From positions 1-42,570 of the forward strand of contig PNLE01000009.1 of assembly GCA_013822855.1 (NCBI GenBank): a stretch of DNA of 42,570 nucleotides, in the 5' to 3' direction. Positions within the stretch are counted from its first letter, which is position 1; each line of letters starts with the position of its first letter. The position numbers were made by a program, and so were the translations under genes. The stretch is from Planctomyces sp. (GTDB lineage: Bacteria > Planctomycetota > Planctomycetia > Planctomycetales > Planctomycetaceae). The notes under the pieces were generated by a model. It worked only from the letters and a program-made list of their open reading frames with translations. It did not search any database and was not told the DNA's origin. Positions 16,650-26,631 of the stretch are shown here, one piece after another.

Positions 16650-17396
16650 CTATTTCGAGAGTTCGGCCATCACTTCGTCCGAGACACTGAAATTCGACAT
16701 CACGTTCTGGATGTCGTCGTTGTCTTCCAGTTCCTCAATGAGTGTCAGCACTGCCCGCCCCATTTCCAGATCCAACTCAACCAGATTCTGGGGAATCATC
16801 GTGATCTCGGCCGATTCCGTCGGAATGCGGGCCTGCTCCAGGGCCTCACCCACCGCAGTGAAAGTATCGGGGGTGCAAACCACTTCAAAGCCGTTGGCCC
16901 GCTGGGCAACATCCAAGGCCCCCGCCTCCAGGGCCACATCCATCAGCGACTCTTCGGTCGTCGCTTCGGATTTGATGACGTAGACGCCGCGCCGGTCGAA
17001 CATGTACGCCACACATCCCGTGCTGCCGAGGTTGCCGCCGTTGACCTCGAAAATCTTGCGAACATCGCCCGCCGTGCGATTGCGGTTCTCGGTGAGGATG
17101 TCGCACAGGATGGCGACGCCGCCGGGGCCGTAACCTTCGTAGAGGATCTGTTCGTAGTTGTCCGCCTGGAGCTCGCCGGTCCCCTTCTTGATGGCACGTT
17201 CGATCGTCTCGGCCGGCATGCTGGACTTCTTGGCCCGGTCGATCGCATAGCGGAGAGCGAGGTTCGCCGCCGGATCGCCACCCCGCTGTGCCGCCACGAT
17301 GATCGCCCGAGAAAGCTTGCCGAAGAGCTTGCCCCGCTTCTTGTCGAATCTCCCTTTTTTATGGGCGATGTTCGCCCAATGGGAATGACCTGCCAT
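16650..17396 (-). CDS. YebC/PmpR-family regulator (DUF28)
   Basis: A 248-residue YebC/TACO1-family protein. The hallmark N-terminus MAGHSHWANIAHKKGRFDKK aligns with the usual MAGHSKWANI; next come AIDRAKKSSMPAETIERAIKKGTGE and the YEGYGPGGVAILCDILTENRNRT signature. The family is described as DNA-binding regulators and, more recently, as factors helping ribosomes through difficult sequences such as proline runs. The start at 17396 is fixed by the conserved N-terminus. It is located 148 bp before recA on the same strand; yebC next to Holliday-junction or recombination genes is common in bacteria. Confidence 0.95.
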   Translation of the reverse strand: MAGHSHWANIAHKKGRFDKKRGKLFGKLSRAIIVAAQRGGDPAANLALRYAIDRAKKSSMPAETIERAIKKGTGELQADNYEQILYEGYGPGGVAILCDILTENRNRTAGDVRKIFEVNGGNLGSTGCVAYMFDRRGVYVIKSEATTEESLMDVALEAGALDVAQRANGFEVVCTPDTFTAVGEALEQARIPTESAEITMIPQNLVELDLEMGRAVLTLIEELEDNDDIQNVMSNFSVSDEVMAELSK

Positions 17397-17537
17397 GCTG
17401 CCCATCTCTTCTGTTGAACTGGAACACCGCGACTGAAGGCGCTGCGTCAAAGAAACGCCACAGCCACTCTTGATCTACTGATCTACACCAGCCAGCTACA
17501 TCCATGACACCTGGCTTCATAAAGCTGCAGCCAAACG

Positions 17538-19949
17538 TCACGAGGCCGGAGCCGCCTGCGAGACCGGTGTGGCCTGGGGCTTGTCGTTCGAGCCGAGCTT
17601 GCTTTCGAGCCGCTTCAAAAGTTTCTCATCGGGAAAGCGTTCGACCTTCGTCTTCTCCAAGGCCGTGGCCCAAGCTTTGGCGGCGTCGGCGGCACGTCCC
17701 AACTTCTCGTAAACATCGCCCAGATGCTCATAGATCGTGCCGTCGCCACCCGATCGAAGTTCGACCGCCTTCTCCAGCGGAGCGATCGCTTCCTGGTACT
17801 TGCCCAGCTTGAACAGCACCCAACCCAGACTGTCGAGATACGCCGCGTTGTCGGGTTCGGCCGCGACCGCCTTGCGGATCATTTTCTCGGCCTTATCCAG
17901 GTTCTTTCCCTGGTCGGCATAGAGGTAACCCAGATCGTTGTTGACTGAAATATCCTCGGGGTCTTCCTCCAGCACCTTCTCCAGAATCGCCTCGCCACGA
18001 GGCAGATCACCCTGCAAAACATAGATGTTCGACAGGCTGAACTGGCACTGGCGGACAACGCGCGTCTCGTCGGGAAAATCACGAATGACCGATTCGAACT
18101 GCGTGACGGCCTTCTCGAAGTTCCGGCTGTGGTAATAGACCCAACCCTTCTGGAACTGGAGGACCGCCGCCTGCGGAATCAGCCGAATGGCCTGATCGAT
18201 GGCTTCCAGCGCCCCCTCGGTGTTGCCGCTCATTTCACGGGCCTGCGACAACTGGAAGAGCAAATTGGGTTTGCGATCCGCGAGTGACGGTTCACCGATC
18301 GCCTCTTCCAGCGCCACGATCGCATCGGCGTAGCGATCGGCCTTCAGCAGGGTTTCGGCCAGATCCGACAAGATGATCCCGGCCCGCTCGGGTGAAATCT
18401 CCTTGGCTTTGCGGAAGAACTCCACAGCCGCATCGATGTTCTCAGCCTGAGCGGCGAGCTTGGCGACCAAATAAGCCTCCTCGAACGTCAACTCGCGCGG
18501 CTCGGCGGCGGACTGCTTGCGGCCCGCTTCGATCACACTGGCGACCAGTTCCTTGTCCTTCGATACCGAATCGAACTCGGCTTCGATCTCGTCGACACTG
18601 TCGGGGGGAGCCTGCGAAAGCCCCCGCCCCAGGATGTCCAGCAGTTTGTCGGCCACCTTCTGTTTGCGATACAGCCTTGAGAGTCCCAGATAGCCCTTGA
18701 GATCGCGCGACCCCTTGAGCGAAGCCTCGTAGATCTTTTCCGCCTTCTCGTACTCGGCCTTGTCGGTCAGTTTCTCGGCCAGGAAGAACTGCAGCGTCGA
18801 ATTCCGCTGATCCTTCTCGGCGATGACCGTCAGTCGATCGATCAACTCTCCCTCGAGGCCGCTTTTGGTGAGGATCTGAGCCAACAGTTCATAGGCTTCC
18901 CGACCCTTCGACTGCCGCTGGGCATCGATGTATTTCTGCAGTTCCACGAGAGCTTCAGCCGGCTTCCCTTCGAGCAGCAACAGCTTGGATTGATAAAAGT
19001 TGACGTTGCCGCGACTCGCCTTGCCGGTCTTGATGGCCAATTCGAGCGCTTCGCGTGCTGGCTGAACCCGTTCGGCGTCGAGCATCACCTGGGCCACGCG
19101 CTCGGCACCGGTTCGCGGATCATTCATCAACTCGGTGCGAAAGCGGGGATCGAGCTTGAACTCGTCCGGTTGCTTGAAGACCTTCAACAGCAGTTCATAC
19201 TTGTCTGCCGCCTTGGGGATGTTGCCGGTGGCCAGATAGAGAATGGCCAGATCACGGTTAAGCCGGATGGCCCAGTTGGATTGAGCTTCGAGCGAAGGAG
19301 AAGCGGCCGCCTGCTCCAGAAACTTGATGGCATCGGCCCCACGCTGCTGCGCCGCCATACCGGCGGCCAGCGTGTGCAACACTTCGAAGTCGGTGGGATC
19401 GAGATCAACGACCTTCATGGCCCAAGCCATCGCCTGGATCGGTTGCTCCTGGATCAGCGCGATCTGCATCAGCTTGCGAAAGGTGTCGGGCGACTTGGGA
19501 TCGAGTTCGGCTGCTCGTTGAAACGCCGCATAGGCCCGCTTCCATTCCAGCCGCGATTCGAACAGCGAACCCGACATGTACCACGCAAGAGCTTCCGCCC
19601 TCTTGTCTTCCGCCGGAGTCGCGGGAACCTTGGGCTGCAGCGGTGTCGCTGGCTCATCGAGCGGTTGCATCTGAATCGTGGGAACGGGGGGCACAGGCGA
19701 CGACTCGGTGCCCAGCGGGCTCTTCGCGGGAGGAGTTTCACCCGGTTTGACAGCCCCCTCCTTACCGCCACCCTCTTTCCCCGAGCCTTCGGCCGAGACT
19801 GGAGGAGCGGCTGCCGGCGAGTCAGGTTCCGCCGCCTGGGGCGGGGGCTGAACGGCGGGTTGGGCGCTGACCTCTGCCTGCTCAAGACCTGAGATCAATA
19901 ACAGACTGGACAACACCAGCGTGTGAACCCGATTCCAAACTCGTTCCAT
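17538..19949 (-). CDS. Large exported TPR protein
   Basis: An 803-residue protein: signal peptide (about 1-29, ending VSAQ), a Pro/Ala/Glu-rich low-complexity segment (30-105), then TPR-like repeats over most of the remainder (clear ones include EWKRAYAAFQRAAELDPKSP and the C-terminal KYQEAIAPLEKAVELRSGGD). The last repeats resemble those of outer-membrane assembly and PEP-CTERM system TPR lipoproteins, but no lipobox is present. It probably scaffolds a protein complex in the periplasm. The ATG at 19949 follows GGGAGTCAGGTG, which favours it over a longer start. It is located 141 bp upstream of yebC. No specific role can be assigned. Confidence 0.88.
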   Translation of the reverse strand: MERVWNRVHTLVLSSLLLISGLEQAEVSAQPAVQPPPQAAEPDSPAAAPPVSAEGSGKEGGGKEGAVKPGETPPAKSPLGTESSPVPPVPTIQMQPLDEPATPLQPKVPATPAEDKRAEALAWYMSGSLFESRLEWKRAYAAFQRAAELDPKSPDTFRKLMQIALIQEQPIQAMAWAMKVVDLDPTDFEVLHTLAAGMAAQQRGADAIKFLEQAAASPSLEAQSNWAIRLNRDLAILYLATGNIPKAADKYELLLKVFKQPDEFKLDPRFRTELMNDPRTGAERVAQVMLDAERVQPAREALELAIKTGKASRGNVNFYQSKLLLLEGKPAEALVELQKYIDAQRQSKGREAYELLAQILTKSGLEGELIDRLTVIAEKDQRNSTLQFFLAEKLTDKAEYEKAEKIYEASLKGSRDLKGYLGLSRLYRKQKVADKLLDILGRGLSQAPPDSVDEIEAEFDSVSKDKELVASVIEAGRKQSAAEPRELTFEEAYLVAKLAAQAENIDAAVEFFRKAKEISPERAGIILSDLAETLLKADRYADAIVALEEAIGEPSLADRKPNLLFQLSQAREMSGNTEGALEAIDQAIRLIPQAAVLQFQKGWVYYHSRNFEKAVTQFESVIRDFPDETRVVRQCQFSLSNIYVLQGDLPRGEAILEKVLEEDPEDISVNNDLGYLYADQGKNLDKAEKMIRKAVAAEPDNAAYLDSLGWVLFKLGKYQEAIAPLEKAVELRSGGDGTIYEHLGDVYEKLGRAADAAKAWATALEKTKVERFPDEKLLKRLESKLGSNDKPQATPVSQAAPAS

Positions 19950-20140
19950 CACCTGACTCCCACGCTCATCCTCGGGCAGATCCCTGCGGAAGTTCCCAGC
20001 CATTGGGTGCCGGGAACTTTCAGCAGCGTGGATTGTAGCCCGATTTCGCGCCAAGCGGCAAATCGAAGTTAGGCCGAAGTGAAGATCATCACAGCAATCG
20101 TGGAATTCACTCGCCAGCGGTGCCCCTGATTGATGGAGAT

Positions 20141-21277
20141 CTACTTCTTCTTGGTGGCCTTTTTGGCCGGAGCAGCCGACTTGGCCTTGGCCGAGGTCGT
20201 TTTCGCCGGCGCGGGTTTGCTGGCTGCGGGCTTTGTGGACGCCGACTTGCCCGGTGTGGTTTTGGCCGATGCCGACTTCGCGGGAGCGGACTGAGATGAG
20301 ACCGATTTCACGGGTGCCGTTTTTGGTGCGGCGGTCTTGCCTGAAGACTTGGCCGCTTTGTCTGCCTTGTCGGCCGTCGCCTTAGACACCTTAGCGGCCT
20401 TTTCAGCCTTTTCGGCGGCGATCTTCGCGGCGGCCTTTTCGTTGGCCTTGTCAACAGCGGCCTGCTTCTTGTCCGCTTCCTTCTTGTCCTTGTCCTTCTG
20501 CTTCGCTTCGGCGGCATCCACGGCAGCCTGCTGTTTTCGCAGACGTTCCAGATAAGCGGCGGAACCGACCTTCATCAACTCGGCGAGACGATCCATCGCG
20601 GTGGCCGCATCGTAGCCCTCTTCGGGAACCGGGACGGCCTTGAGGTTGAACGCGTCGCGCAGCGTGGGATCCGTTCCCAAAGCACGGATCATCGTGCTGA
20701 ACTGATCGACCTCCGCCTTCTTGATGGCCGCTTTCAGCGATTCGGCGACCTCTTCCTGCCCTTGACCCGGATTCGCCAATCCCAACCAGACCAGAACGTT
20801 CATCGAACGCTCGTCCAGCGGCATGAGATGGGCGCCAAGCACCGCGTGCAGGGTGAACGTCCGCACGAACGGCGTGGCGGATTTGATCTTCGCCAGCTGC
20901 TTCTGGGCCAGTTCCAGGGTCCGCTTCTTCAGGCCCTCGAACTCGAACGTGTAGTTCTTGTCGAAGACATGCTGCAGCACGCCCTTGTAGCGATAGGCTT
21001 TCCACTCGGCGTTCTCGATGGGACCGAGAGCCTCCTGGAGTTCGGTCACCGAACTCACACGGGCCTCGTTGAGATCCTCGAAGGAAGCCCGCAGCCGTTC
21101 ATAACCCGCCAGCCCGTCCTCGATCGACGAGTCTTCCAGGCAGACCGCGAAGAGCATGGTTTCCAAAACAGGAAACTCGGGAATGGGAGGGAGCTTGTGG
21201 AGCTTCTTGACGACGGGATGAAGTTTCTTGAGCAATGCCTGCTTGTCGGCGGTTTTCGTTCGTACGGCAGAGGCCAT
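20141..21277 (-). CDS. HhH-GPD glycosylase-like protein with histone H1-like Lys/Ala tail
   Basis: A 378-residue protein in two parts. Residues about 12-175 look like the endonuclease III/HhH-GPD fold: PEFPVLETMLFAVCLEDSSIEDGLAGYERL matches the first helices, and HLMPLDERSM aligns with the catalytic Asp region (Asp155). The hairpin that normally reads GVGRKTA is replaced by ATPFVRTFT, so the catalytic Lys is missing, and there is no iron-sulfur cluster Cys set. Residues about 245-378 are almost entirely Lys, Ala, Ser, Thr and Pro (AKP/AAKK repeats), like histone H1 or the C-terminal tails of bacterial H1-like proteins. It may be a non-catalytic DNA-binding protein. It lies between rbfA and the TPR gene. 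The ATG at 21277 is the first start. Confidence 0.8.
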   Translation of the reverse strand: MASAVRTKTADKQALLKKLHPVVKKLHKLPPIPEFPVLETMLFAVCLEDSSIEDGLAGYERLRASFEDLNEARVSSVTELQEALGPIENAEWKAYRYKGVLQHVFDKNYTFEFEGLKKRTLELAQKQLAKIKSATPFVRTFTLHAVLGAHLMPLDERSMNVLVWLGLANPGQGQEEVAESLKAAIKKAEVDQFSTMIRALGTDPTLRDAFNLKAVPVPEEGYDAATAMDRLAELMKVGSAAYLERLRKQQAAVDAAEAKQKDKDKKEADKKQAAVDKANEKAAAKIAAEKAEKAAKVSKATADKADKAAKSSGKTAAPKTAPVKSVSSQSAPAKSASAKTTPGKSASTKPAASKPAPAKTTSAKAKSAAPAKKATKKK

Positions 21278-21410: not shown

Positions 21411-21941
21411 TCATGCGGACGGCTTTCCAGCATCGCCATCCAACCCCACTCCACCTTCGGATCCACTCAACTCTTCTTCGTCGCCCCCATCGCCATCTTC
21501 ATCCTCCTCGAATTCGCTGTCATCGAATTCGCCGTCAGCCGATTCAGCGCCTTCCAAATCCAAGTCGTCAGCCCCCTCGGATGTCTCTTCCGAAGTCTCG
21601 CCGGGGATGATCTCTCGCAGCGCCCGCGAGGTCTCGACGCTCAACTTGACCCCCTGATCGAGGACGAATGTCAGCACCGGGGTGTAGCGGGTCTCCAGGC
21701 GATCGGCGATCTTCGACTGGATGAAGCCCTTGGCGGATTCCAGCCCGTACATGCACAGCGACTGTTCCTTGGCGGTACCCATCACCGAGACCCGCACCCG
21801 TGCGGTGCGCATGTCGGGAGCGACTTCGGCCGCCAGAACGGTGACGTTCTTGACGCGGGGATCACGGATGTGACGCATCAGGGTCAGGCTGACGGTTTCG
21901 AGAACAGCTTGGGAGGCTTTCGCCAATCGACGGGACATCAT
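21411..21941 (-). CDS. rbfA: Ribosome-binding factor A with long acidic tail
   Basis: A 176-residue RbfA. The KH-like domain spans about 1-118: MMSRRLAKASQAVLETVSLTL, the DPRVKNVTVLAAEVAPDMRTARVRVSV strand pair and the YTPVLTFVLDQGVKLS region. RbfA binds the 30S subunit and aids 16S 5' maturation and cold adaptation. Residues about 120-176 are an extra acidic tail of Asp, Glu and Gly. Two adjacent ATGs (21941 and 21938) are possible; CAGGAG lies 10 bases before the first. It follows infB, as in the common nusA-infB-rbfA order, with a hairpin in the 153-bp gap. Confidence 0.93.
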   Translation of the reverse strand: MMSRRLAKASQAVLETVSLTLMRHIRDPRVKNVTVLAAEVAPDMRTARVRVSVMGTAKEQSLCMYGLESAKGFIQSKIADRLETRYTPVLTFVLDQGVKLSVETSRALREIIPGETSEETSEGADDLDLEGAESADGEFDDSEFEEDEDGDGGDEEELSGSEGGVGLDGDAGKPSA

Positions 21942-22054
21942 GAGGGAACAACTCCTGAGCCGGCACCGGACGGCGCACACTCGGTCGCCCGGCTCAAGCT
22001 CCAATCACCGAGAATCGATTCTCTGGAAGCACCCATCACTCACGAACCCCGCAG

Positions 22055-22094: not shown

Positions 22095-25046
22095 TTACGA
22101 CTCGAATGTCCGCTTCACTTCCTCGATCTTGTAGGCTTCGAGGAGGTCGCCCTCCTTCACATCGTTGAAGCCTTCCAGCCGGATGCCGCACTCCATCCCT
22201 TCACGAACGTCGCGGGCATCGTCCTTTTCCCGACGCAGAGATGCAATAGCGTAGGAATTGAGCACCTTCTGATCGCGGATCACATGGATCCGGTTGCTGC
22301 GATCGATCGTACCGTTGAGCACACGGCAACCGGCGATCGTACCGAACCGGCTGATGCTGAAGGTCTGCAGCACAATCGCCCGGCCCAGCGTGACTTCCTT
22401 CTTCGCCGGCTTGAGCATCCCCTCGAGGGTCTGCTTAATTTCGTCCACCACCTCATAGATGATGTTGTACCGGCGGATCTCGACATCCTCCTGCATCGCC
22501 AAGGAGGCTGCGCGATCGTCGGGGATCACATGGAAGGCGATGATGATCGCCGACGAGGCACTGGCCAGGTAGACATCGCTCTCGTTCACCCCCCCCACAC
22601 CTTCATGCAGGATGCGGACGCGAACTTCGGGATGTTCGAACTTGCCGATCTCGCTGCGGAGTGCTTCCAGCGACCCAGGCGTATCGGCCTTGATGATGAC
22701 TCCCAGATCCTGCACCTCCCCGTCGCGGGCGGCGTTGAGGATATCTTCCAATGTCCGCTTCCCACCCCGTGCGGCGAGAGACGTCTGTCGTCCCGACATC
22801 CGGCGGCGTTCGGCGATGTCGCGAGCCAGGTCGAGGTCGTTGAGCACCACGAACTTGTCGCCGGGAGCCGGCACGATATCCAGACCCGCCAGCATTACCG
22901 GCGTGGAAGGAGGTGCTTCATCGATCTCCTGATCCTTCTCGTTGAAGATGGCCCGCACCTTGCCGTAGGCCTGACCGCACAGGACAACATCCCCCTTGCG
23001 GAGGGTTCCCTTCTGCACGATGAGCCAGGCCAAAGGACCGCGGCCTTCATCTCGGAAGGCTTCCAGACAGGCACCCGTCGCGGGACGCTCGGGGTTGGCC
23101 TTGAATTCGTTCAGTTCGGCGGTCAACAGCAGTGTTTCCAGCAGGGTGTCGAGGCCTTCGCCCGACAGACCCGATGTCCGCACCACTTCGGTGTCGCCAC
23201 CCCACTCGGCGGCCAGCACGTTCTGTGCGGCCAGTTCCTGGAGGACGCGCTGCTCGTTCCGATCCGGGAGATCGACCTTGTTCAGCGCGACCACCAGCGG
23301 CACACCCGCCGCCTTGGCGTGGGCGATGCATTCGACCGTCTGCGGCATCACACCGTCGTTCGCCGCCACGACCAGCACGATGATATCCGTGACGTTCGCA
23401 CCGCGGGCACGCATTTCGCCGAACGCCGCGTGACCGGGCGTATCGACGAACGTGAGCTTCTGACCATTCTTCACCACCTGGTAGGCGGCGATGTGCTGGG
23501 TGATCCCCCCATGCTCCGAAGCGGCCACGTTGGCGGAACGCAACTTGTCGACCAGCGTGGTTTTGCCATGATCGACGTGGCCCAGGATCGTGATGATCGG
23601 AGCGCGATCGACCAGCGTCTCGGGAGCGTCGGGCAGGTCGATGTATTCCTGAAGTTCGTCTTCGACATCCTTCGGCTTGATGATCCGCAGATCGACGCCC
23701 AATTCCAGGGCGAGTTCGACGGCGGTGTCTTCATGCAGCAGGCTGTTGATCGTCAGCATCTCTCCACGCTTGAAGAGAATGCCCAGAATCTGCTTGGCAG
23801 GTCGCCCCATCGCTTCCGACAGCGACCGGACATTGAGTGGCGGCTCGATTTCGGCGAAGGTCTTGAGCTGCGCGCTCTGCTTCTGGCCAGGCCGGCGAAT
23901 CATCTTGCGGAGGGCCTTGCGCTGGCCGGCTTCCTCCTCTTCGCTGCCACGAACATCCTTGGTTCGTTTGACACGGCGTGCCTCGCGGATCTCCTCCATC
24001 CCCGCGCCGACGGGATTCTTGTCACCCCGCTTGCCGCCACGGGTATCGATCGAATCGCCTGGCCCGCCGATCTTGATCTTGTCGTCAACACCACGACGAC
24101 CACCACCCGCCATGTGACCACCCAGAGGGGTCGCCGCGACGAGTTTGCCGTCCTTGTTGATCCGAATTTCGGGAGCTTGCGGCTTTGCTTCTTCCTTGCG
24201 GGTCACGGGAGGACCGCTGAACGTTCCCAGATTCGCGACGCCGGGAACATTGCCCCGGGGACGCACTGGAGGTTCGGCATTGCCGCGACCGGCGACCGGT
24301 GGAGTCGCCGCTCCGCCGCCCTGCCCCTGGTCTCCGCGGGAAGGTGTGCCGCGACTGCTCATCCCCATGTCACGCATGGGCCGGCTGCCCACTGCCCGCA
24401 TCTGCCCAGCTGGCATTCGCGAGGGCATCGCAGGGCGTTCCGGCGCGCCGGGAACGCGTGGCGGTGCCACGGGTGCTGCTGTCGTGGAGGCACCACTCGC
24501 CTTGGCTTCGACAACGGGAGCCGCTGGGGCGGGATCGGCAGTTGGCGATTCCGCAGTCGGCTCATCTCCTGCGGGAGACTGTATTTCGTCATCAACAGGA
24601 TCTGTTTCGGCAACAGCGACAACCTCGGCGACTTCGTCCTCCGTGTCGCTGAAATCCTCGTCGCCGGAAACGACCTCATCTTCGCCTTCATTCGATTCCT
24701 GAATGAAGGCGGGGGCGGGTTCTTGACCCGCACCTGTTGTGGTCACCGCGCCGGATCGTTGAATCGGGGACTTGGCGATCATGTCGCGCAGCTTGCGAAC
24801 CGCGCCGGCCAGTTCGCGGGCCTGCTCTTCGCGCTGGGGCAATCGGGCCGCTTCGGGGCCGGTCGCCGTCATCACCGCCGTTGAACCAGTCCCCCGGATG
24901 ATGGCGAGAACGCGATCCCGCTCTTCAGGCGAGATACTCGCCAGAGCCGAATTCTTGACCATGATGCCCGCCTTCGCGCAATGCTCGATCAACAGTCGGC
25001 TGTCCATATCGAGCTCTTTGGCGAGAGCAAAAATTCGAATCTTCAA
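22095..25046 (-). CDS. infB: Translation initiation factor IF-2
   Basis: A 983-residue IF-2, the GTPase that brings initiator tRNA to the 30S subunit. The N-terminal IF2_N domain (1-52) is followed by a long linker of about 320 residues, first acidic, then rich in Pro, Gly and Arg. The G domain has GHVDHGKTT near residue 486, DTPGHAAF and NKVDL. The C-terminal tRNA-binding domains are complete. I take TTG 25046 as the start: AGAGGA lies 8 bases upstream and MKIRIFALAKEL matches the family N-terminus. An out-of-frame ATG-AGC-GTT-TGA overlaps the start. It follows nusA after 205 bp. Confidence 0.97.
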   Translation of the reverse strand: MKIRIFALAKELDMDSRLLIEHCAKAGIMVKNSALASISPEERDRVLAIIRGTGSTAVMTATGPEAARLPQREEQARELAGAVRKLRDMIAKSPIQRSGAVTTTGAGQEPAPAFIQESNEGEDEVVSGDEDFSDTEDEVAEVVAVAETDPVDDEIQSPAGDEPTAESPTADPAPAAPVVEAKASGASTTAAPVAPPRVPGAPERPAMPSRMPAGQMRAVGSRPMRDMGMSSRGTPSRGDQGQGGGAATPPVAGRGNAEPPVRPRGNVPGVANLGTFSGPPVTRKEEAKPQAPEIRINKDGKLVAATPLGGHMAGGGRRGVDDKIKIGGPGDSIDTRGGKRGDKNPVGAGMEEIREARRVKRTKDVRGSEEEEAGQRKALRKMIRRPGQKQSAQLKTFAEIEPPLNVRSLSEAMGRPAKQILGILFKRGEMLTINSLLHEDTAVELALELGVDLRIIKPKDVEDELQEYIDLPDAPETLVDRAPIITILGHVDHGKTTLVDKLRSANVAASEHGGITQHIAAYQVVKNGQKLTFVDTPGHAAFGEMRARGANVTDIIVLVVAANDGVMPQTVECIAHAKAAGVPLVVALNKVDLPDRNEQRVLQELAAQNVLAAEWGGDTEVVRTSGLSGEGLDTLLETLLLTAELNEFKANPERPATGACLEAFRDEGRGPLAWLIVQKGTLRKGDVVLCGQAYGKVRAIFNEKDQEIDEAPPSTPVMLAGLDIVPAPGDKFVVLNDLDLARDIAERRRMSGRQTSLAARGGKRTLEDILNAARDGEVQDLGVIIKADTPGSLEALRSEIGKFEHPEVRVRILHEGVGGVNESDVYLASASSAIIIAFHVIPDDRAASLAMQEDVEIRRYNIIYEVVDEIKQTLEGMLKPAKKEVTLGRAIVLQTFSISRFGTIAGCRVLNGTIDRSNRIHVIRDQKVLNSYAIASLRREKDDARDVREGMECGIRLEGFNDVKEGDLLEAYKIEEVKRTFES

Positions 25047-25251: not shown

Positions 25252-26631
25252 TCAGTTGCCGGCAGTCCCCTCGGCTTCAACCTTGACAGTGGCAACAGCC
25301 TCCGTCTTGGACTCTTCAGGAACCTCGGAAGCTTCCACGGCCTCTTCAGCAACGACAGTGACAACTGCCGGCTTCGGGCCAGCCAGGCGGGCCAGTTCGT
25401 CCAATCGCCGCTGCTCGCGCTCCTGCGATTGCCGCTCGGCCTTTTCGGTCGCGCGGCGGACATCCTGCTCCTTCTCGATCCGTTCGCTTTCCTTCTCGGC
25501 ATACTCGACGATCACGTCGGCCTGCTCCTGGGTCAGCGAACCCATTTCCATGAGCTGATCGGGCTCAATGACCGACAGATCCTCGAAGCTCAGGAAGCCC
25601 TGCGAGACCAAACCCTCCGCCAGTTCCTCGGTGACACCGGGGATCTGCGAGTAGGCGACCACCGCGAGATCGAGCTGCTGATCGAGTTCTTCGCGGGTCA
25701 TCACGTCGATATCCCAACCGACGAGCTTCGAAGCCAGGCGCACGTTCTGGCCCCGCTTGCCGATCGCCAGCGAGAGCTGATCGTCACGCACCAGCACCAG
25801 AACACGACCCAGCATCGGACAGAGGATCACGTCCTCCACTTCCGCCGGCTGCATCGCATTGGGAACCAGAACCTGCAACGAATCATTCCAGCGAACAACT
25901 TCAATCCGCTCGCCACCGAGCTCTTCGCCCACATTGCGGATGCGGGCACCACGCACACCCACACAGGCACCGACAGGGTCAATGTTGCTGTCGATGCACG
26001 AGACCGCCACCTTCGTGCGGTAACCCGCCTCACGCGCCAGCGACCGGATCTCGATGATCCGCTCGCTCACTTCGGGGATTTCCAGCTCCAGGAGCCGACG
26101 GACAAAGTCCGGATGGGCCCGCGACAGAACCACGCGAACTCGTGGCCCCATCTTCTTCACTTCCAGGATCACCGCCCGGACGCGTTCATTGGGCCGGTGC
26201 GATTCGCCGGGAATCATTTCGCTGCGGGGCAAAATCGCCTCCGCTTTGCCGATATTGACAGTGATCGCACTCCCCTCGTTCCGGGTAATGGTTCCCGAAA
26301 CGATCTGGCTGCGCATCTGGGCGAATTCATCGAACAGCGTGTCGCGTTCGGCTTCGCGGATCTTCTGGATCATGACCTGCTTGGCAGTCTGGGCCGAGAT
26401 GCGACCCAGGATGTCGCCCAATTCATCGCGGTCGATCTCGCGGCCGTTGGTCGTCACCTGAGGCTGACCGCTGGCACGGTCGATGCGGACGTCGATCAAC
26501 TCTTCCTCACCAAAATGCTTGCGCGCGGCCGAAAGAATGGCTTGCTCCACCCCTTCGAAGACAATTTCCTTGTCGATGCTCTTATCGCGATGGATCGAAT
26601 CCACGATCCGCAGCACTTCGTTGCCGTTCAT
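25252..26631 (-). CDS. nusA: Transcription termination/antitermination factor NusA
   Basis: A 459-residue NusA. It shows the N-terminal RNA-polymerase-binding domain (1-125), an S1 domain (about 130-200, [25 protein letters not shown] minus flanks), KH domains with [21 protein letters not shown] and [16 protein letters not shown], and a helix-hairpin-helix domain (about 350-410, [17 protein letters not shown]). The C-terminal 55 residues are rich in Glu, Arg, Ala and Val and are not conserved. It binds elongating polymerase and rRNA antitermination complexes. The ATG at 26631 follows GAGGATAGTA. rimP, often the gene before nusA, is not seen here; instead about 1 kb without a clear gene lies upstream. 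Confidence 0.97.

Follow-up and report, generated by a model that had tools for sequence, protein, structure and literature searches.

The described proteins closest to gene X, the planctomycete gene analyzed here, share the HhH-GPD fold of DNA glycosylases, with or without the corresponding activity. The plant enzymes ROS1 and DEMETER are active bifunctional glycosylases that use both a Lys and an Asp and sit within a large multidomain protein; S. pombe Mag2, of the AlkA type, is a glycosylase homologue without glycosylase activity; and in many monofunctional HhH-GPD enzymes there is no Lys and the Asp works alone. A second group of factors enters the comparison through gene position, as rimM follows rpsP in many bacteria, and the folds of RimM and RimP are unrelated to that of X. 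The systems most similar to X are EndoIII-1 (DR2438 type, NCBIfam NF053634) and EndoIII-3 of Deinococcus radiodurans. According to the available part of one report, variants of the two proteins contain, in their crystal structures, a [4Fe-4S] cluster, the role of which is called still unclear, and EndoIII-3 has no detectable activity with an active site that, unlike that of X, keeps Lys and Asp (PMC9268735). RimM acts on the head of the small ribosomal subunit, as stated in the accessible text of another (PMC10582724).

Gene X occupies positions 20141 to 21277 on the minus strand of the window, a Planctomyces sp. stretch of 42,570 nucleotides. The initial annotation had correctly marked a real open reading frame here and its strand is now corrected: the plus strand is interrupted by stops, and the minus-strand frame is intact and encodes a 378-aa pseudo-glycosylase with a basic tail. 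A homologue is present in 54 of 59 related genomes, at a single place in nearly all of them, and inner stops are absent among the matches listed, which supports its coding status. Directly upstream lies rbfA (21411 to 22004, minus; PF02033), whose C-terminus is acidic (net −26), preceded by infB (22095 to 25046, minus), named from its translation and conserved in order among relatives, and nusA (25252 to 26631, minus; Pfam NusA_N and KH_5). The gap between rbfA and X is about 130 bases, and a simple scan of the minus strand found no terminator-like site within it. Directly downstream are a TPR-repeat protein (17538 to 20054, minus), found at the same place in many relatives, and yebC of the TACO1 family (16650 to 17450, minus; PF01709). 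Neighbor scans thus bear out the placement first proposed, with X between nusA-infB-rbfA and the TPR gene, yebC, and recA.

The protein is elusive to single-sequence searches. On its own, the window X protein has no Pfam or NCBIfam match at E up to 1, its residues 1–250 have no PDB sequence match at E up to 10, and plasmids gave no match; only profiles built from relatives succeeded. We assembled 117 members, all counts being within Planctomycetota genomes: 57 from the window's class, which include near-copies (L002/L003; the window's genus), and 60 from outside it, taken mostly from the better-scoring of 213 matching genomes. Profile A1 comprises 52 aligned class members and A2 comprises 32 rows from outside the class; L008 was dropped as a duplicate, and eight near-duplicates were removed before tree building. 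For comparison, 23 canonical glycosylase rows from the same phylum were kept out of 32 candidates (L059, L060, L061, L180–L208). Their selection required a GxG-like step together with an Asp-Thr/Val-His/Asn step (L059 was chosen by hand), so that only the Lys, the motif positions, and other columns serve as free tests. A1 matches 250 of 292 phylum genomes, possibly including some canonical matches. A third profile, A3, matches all 292, but canonical Nth and relatives respond to it too, and we draw no count of X from it.

The core, residues 1–245 (20543 to 21277, minus), adopts an EndoIII-like HhH-GPD fold as judged by AlphaFold2, Foldseek, VIA-align, and a profile match to D. radiodurans EndoIII-1, in keeping with the first assignment of this half of the protein. 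The model of residues 1–250 reached a pLDDT of 96.0 and a pTM of 0.91. EndoIII proteins of D. radiodurans headed the results of both Foldseek (8a5f, E 8.9e-6) and VIA-align (4uob, Z 17.2 over 222 residues at 4.5 A). The same proteins were reached by sequence with the A1 profile (8a5f, E 4.4e-11), and NF053634, at a threshold of E 0.1, matched 37 of the 52 A1 members, the best of them at 8.5e-11; PF00730 at that threshold matched only 4 of 52 class rows, and window X is not among them. A member from outside the class (A2 set; pLDDT 92.9) superposes on 8a5g over 208 residues (Z 19.2, 3.5 A), and the A2 profile matches 8a5c (E 3.7e-20). The A2 profile also matches the ROS1/DEMETER glycosylase domain (E 1.6e-14), to which both the class model and the outside model are similar in fold (Z 16–17). 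Mag2, which binds DNA, appears among the fold matches more weakly. The agreement of fold and profile matches for both A1 and A2 leaves little doubt that the ancestry of X is an EndoIII-type HhH-GPD DNA glycosylase, and the two-domain all-helical fold is predicted to be kept across the family.

Taken on sequence, the class members and those outside constitute one family. A1 and A2 align by hhalign at E 1.2e-45, and in a tree of 132 rows the X family forms one side of a branch against the canonical glycosylases (SH-aLRT 99), with the window's class as one group (SH-aLRT 82). Canonical HhH-GPD proteins are also present in 30 of 30 relatives, which argues against X as a substitute for repair enzymes. 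In the window's own genome (G000, 88.9% complete), canonical Nth was not found, and only frames of 391 and 493 aa carry PF00730; three congeners have a further frame of 333 aa, and G000 probably has an assembly gap.

What sets the family apart is its active site. The former hairpin and catalytic-Lys site (residues 133–139, SATPFVR; 20861 to 20881, minus) has Phe137 in place of the Lys, and the GxG hairpin is absent from window X, as the initial annotation had recognized, and from all 117 members; EndoIII-1 in the A1 profile alignment carries GVGVKT at this site. The catalytic Lys occurs in none of the 57 class members and in one of the 60 outside (L171, a doubtful alignment), as opposed to 23 of 23 canonical rows, so that, apart from this one ambiguous row in 117, no orthologue that retains the Lys turned up. 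Also altered is the wedge Gln, the intercalating residue of EndoIII; in 55 of 57 class rows its place is taken by Asp, Asn, or Gly. In turn, the family has a motif of its own, D68-L-N70-E71-A-R73-V74 in window X (21056 to 21076, minus), which is absent from D. radiodurans EndoIII-1 and EndoIII-3. Arg stands at position 73 in 117 of 117 members and Ala in 23 of 23 canonical rows; Asn70 is found in 116 of 117 and Asp68 in 112 of 117, giving D-x-N-[ED]-x-R overall. The near-invariance of Arg73 and Asn70 points to selection for something other than base excision.

The iron–sulfur cysteines follow a less uniform course. The signature C-x6-C-x2-C-x5-C is lacking in window X, and their reported absence therefore holds for this protein but not for the family, since 36 of 117 members (11 of 57 class, 25 of 60 outside) keep it perfectly; none of the 117 has the first three cysteines alone. 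Presence of the [4Fe-4S] cluster requires 12 changes on the 132-row tree, a count that cannot separate gain from loss, with loss of an ancestral cluster as the natural reading. The alignments thus show a family from which the catalytic Lys and the GxG step are gone and, in many lineages, the catalytic-type Asp and the cluster cysteines as well. Separate from the X family is an HhH-GPD group with GIGPET, in which Glu-Thr stands at the canonical Lys-Thr; it occurs in family f45 and other deep lineages (L226, L228, L232, L235, L238, L240, L222, L223, L231).

The strongest clue to the role of X is its gene context. In the window's class, rbfA lies directly upstream of X at 52 of 53 loci, the exception being L089, where infB is present and rbfA was not found. 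Outside the class, rbfA is directly upstream at 25 of 60 loci. Of the other 35, sorted by eye from the neighbor table, 22 have rpsP, encoding ribosomal protein S16, directly upstream of X or within about 1.1 kb (L152, L175), mostly with ffh before it, and 11 of the remainder have yebC downstream or close by. Thus rbfA, ffh-rpsP, or yebC is found near X at 58 of the 60 loci, leaving L123 and L149 without any of them. Pfam scans of picked neighbors confirmed Ffh, S16, YebC, a peptide-chain release factor, and Maf. L128 and L159 carry an ffh-rpsP-X-maf operon with the release factor gene further downstream. Parsimony places at least seven changes of context on the tree, all between translation neighbors except for the two loci without any. 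A nusA operon may include housekeeping genes that have nothing to do with one another, and recombination genes can also have yebC nearby. YebC itself is described, in the text available, as an RNA-binding factor that aids translation of proline-rich stretches (PMC12234827).

X switches operons yet lands among translation genes nearly each time, and this is the main reason for a ribosomal reading, to which we give about half of our confidence: X would be a protein of glycosylase fold that has no catalytic role and serves ribosome assembly or translation. It would no longer excise bases; instead, it would bind nucleic acid during ribosome biogenesis or early translation, with the small subunit as its most likely site of action, and would be made together with NusA, IF2, and RbfA and, in other lineages, with Ffh and S16. 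The D-x-N-E-x-R network would have reshaped the cleft that separates its two helical domains, and this cleft may hold a segment of rRNA or a partner on the ribosome. A disordered, Lys-rich tail, in the members that have one, would lend extra, unspecific RNA affinity or serve as a general grip on RNA or DNA. We infer this role from gene company, which is no proof of function, and some points run against it: X was not found in f45 and other deep lineages, the tail charges of X and RbfA do not vary together, and the Asp that nearly all class members keep would also fit a glycosylase.

The basic tail suggested a different role at the outset. Residues 246–378 (20144 to 20542, minus) are, as first noted, nearly pure in Lys, Ala, Ser, Thr, and Pro (A40 K34 S14 T9 P8 in 133 residues), with a net charge of +23 compared to −2 for the core, and no comparable basic end was found among the 20 window ORFs compared. 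The description as histone H1-like stands as a likeness of composition, and no Pfam family, histone or other, matches at E up to 1 when the whole protein with its low-complexity tail is searched. Tails that reach 50 residues or more and carry a net charge of +10 or higher are found in 44 of 57 class members and in 18 of 60 outside, where 23 members have fewer than 10 residues past the core as its boundary was cut here; the net tail charge is negative in 2 of 117. Its form ranges from KKTAKK repeats through Arg/Glu-rich stretches to none. Thus the tail, usual in the class and patchy beyond it, is by sequence a common but dispensable add-on, and since members with practically no tail exist outside the class, it is not the defining part of the family.

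An inactive glycosylase that can still locate or bend DNA and is held there by an H1-like tail, that is, the nucleoid or lesion-binding protein originally envisaged, would fit a fold whose relatives bind DNA and a tail of this charge. We nevertheless regard it as unlikely: the parts that grip DNA, namely, the HhH hairpin and the wedge residue, are lost, the motif persists in some members that have next to no tail, and the conserved neighbors are ribosome and translation genes rather than nucleoid or repair genes. Within the class, RbfA has a strongly acidic C-terminus (median net −12.5, n = 52). A pairing of the X tail with the acidic RbfA tail by charge was considered and rejected, as their sizes are uncorrelated (rho −0.07, n = 52). 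In L063, the RbfA tail is a run of SDEAD repeats.

The retained Asp raises the question of whether X is an active monofunctional glycosylase or another enzyme with a rebuilt site. The Asp segment likened initially to LPLDER is indeed present, as MPLDER (residues 152–157), within H-L-M-P-L-D (residues 150–155; 20813 to 20830, minus). A catalytic-type Asp, Asp155 in the window, is kept in 56 of 57 class rows beside the near-invariant His150 and Pro153; the invariant polar motif is new; and the GIGPET-type relatives show that proteins without the Lys occur in the same phylum. However, the Asp is missing in 34 of the 60 members outside the class (26 keep it) and in 20 of the 22 rpsP-linked ones, and the GxG step survives in no member, which makes an active enzyme distinctly improbable. 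NusA is tied to transcription-coupled repair, and a lesion sensor coupled through it to RNA polymerase would suit the nusA-infB-rbfA-X order of the class, with recA further down in the window's genus, but is very improbable given that nusA was not found at the 22 of 60 outside loci with rpsP, mostly joined by ffh, and that recA lies close to X at only two loci of the genus besides the window.

The ribosomal reading gains a wider setting from the assembly factors of the phylum. RimM was detected in 1 of 292 Planctomycetota genomes by TIGR02273 and in 0 of 99 by PF01782, and RimP (PF02576) in 13 of 99. RbfA is found in 98 of 99 genomes drawn the same way, and both RimM and RimP were detected in all 10 bacterial control genomes, so that their scarcity is not due to poor assembly. 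The lone RimM match (G140:C21:452-736; L209) is partial, lies close to a contig end, and may be a contaminant. Small-subunit assembly in a phylum that keeps RbfA without RimM and mostly without RimP must therefore be wired differently. In the limited literature searched, partly available to us, we found no published statement that RimM is absent from Planctomycetota.

Where X follows rpsP, it holds the position taken elsewhere by rimM. Among the 14 genomes missed by A1, one (G095) has the motif and 13 have only canonical, GIGPET-type, or unclear relatives. Family f45 is among these 13 and is also without RimM (G101, G120, G134, G149). A one-for-one replacement of RimM by X is thereby weakened: f45 lacks both, and RimM can thus be lost without X being there. 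In part of the phylum X may make up for the missing RimM, or the two may have nothing to do with each other.

The literature searched, which leaves out most subscription papers, yielded no published work on the X family, and the available text of a TraDIS paper on Planctopirus limnophila mentions neither rbfA nor infB (PMC10632474). The PVC signature protein (CT421.2) likewise occurs across Planctomycetota with no assigned function and was ruled out as X on length, being 53 to over 80 aa in the text accessible to us (PMC3444138).

A possible history, which we offer tentatively, is that a glycosylase fold became a ribosome assembly factor early in Planctomycetota, losing its chemistry stepwise, with the hairpin and Lys going first and the [4Fe-4S] cluster and Asp following in some lines, gaining D-x-N-E-x-R, and moving between rbfA and rpsP operons in a phylum without RimM and mostly without RimP; members that keep the cluster might tie ribosome production to redox state. 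Those members, having no catalytic Lys, would provide a handle on the role of the cluster where base excision is hardly served. If the ribosomal reading is true, the X family, conserved over much of the phylum, would be a plain example of a DNA-repair fold put to new use in making ribosomes, and X would be a candidate for how Planctomycetota build their small subunits without RimM.
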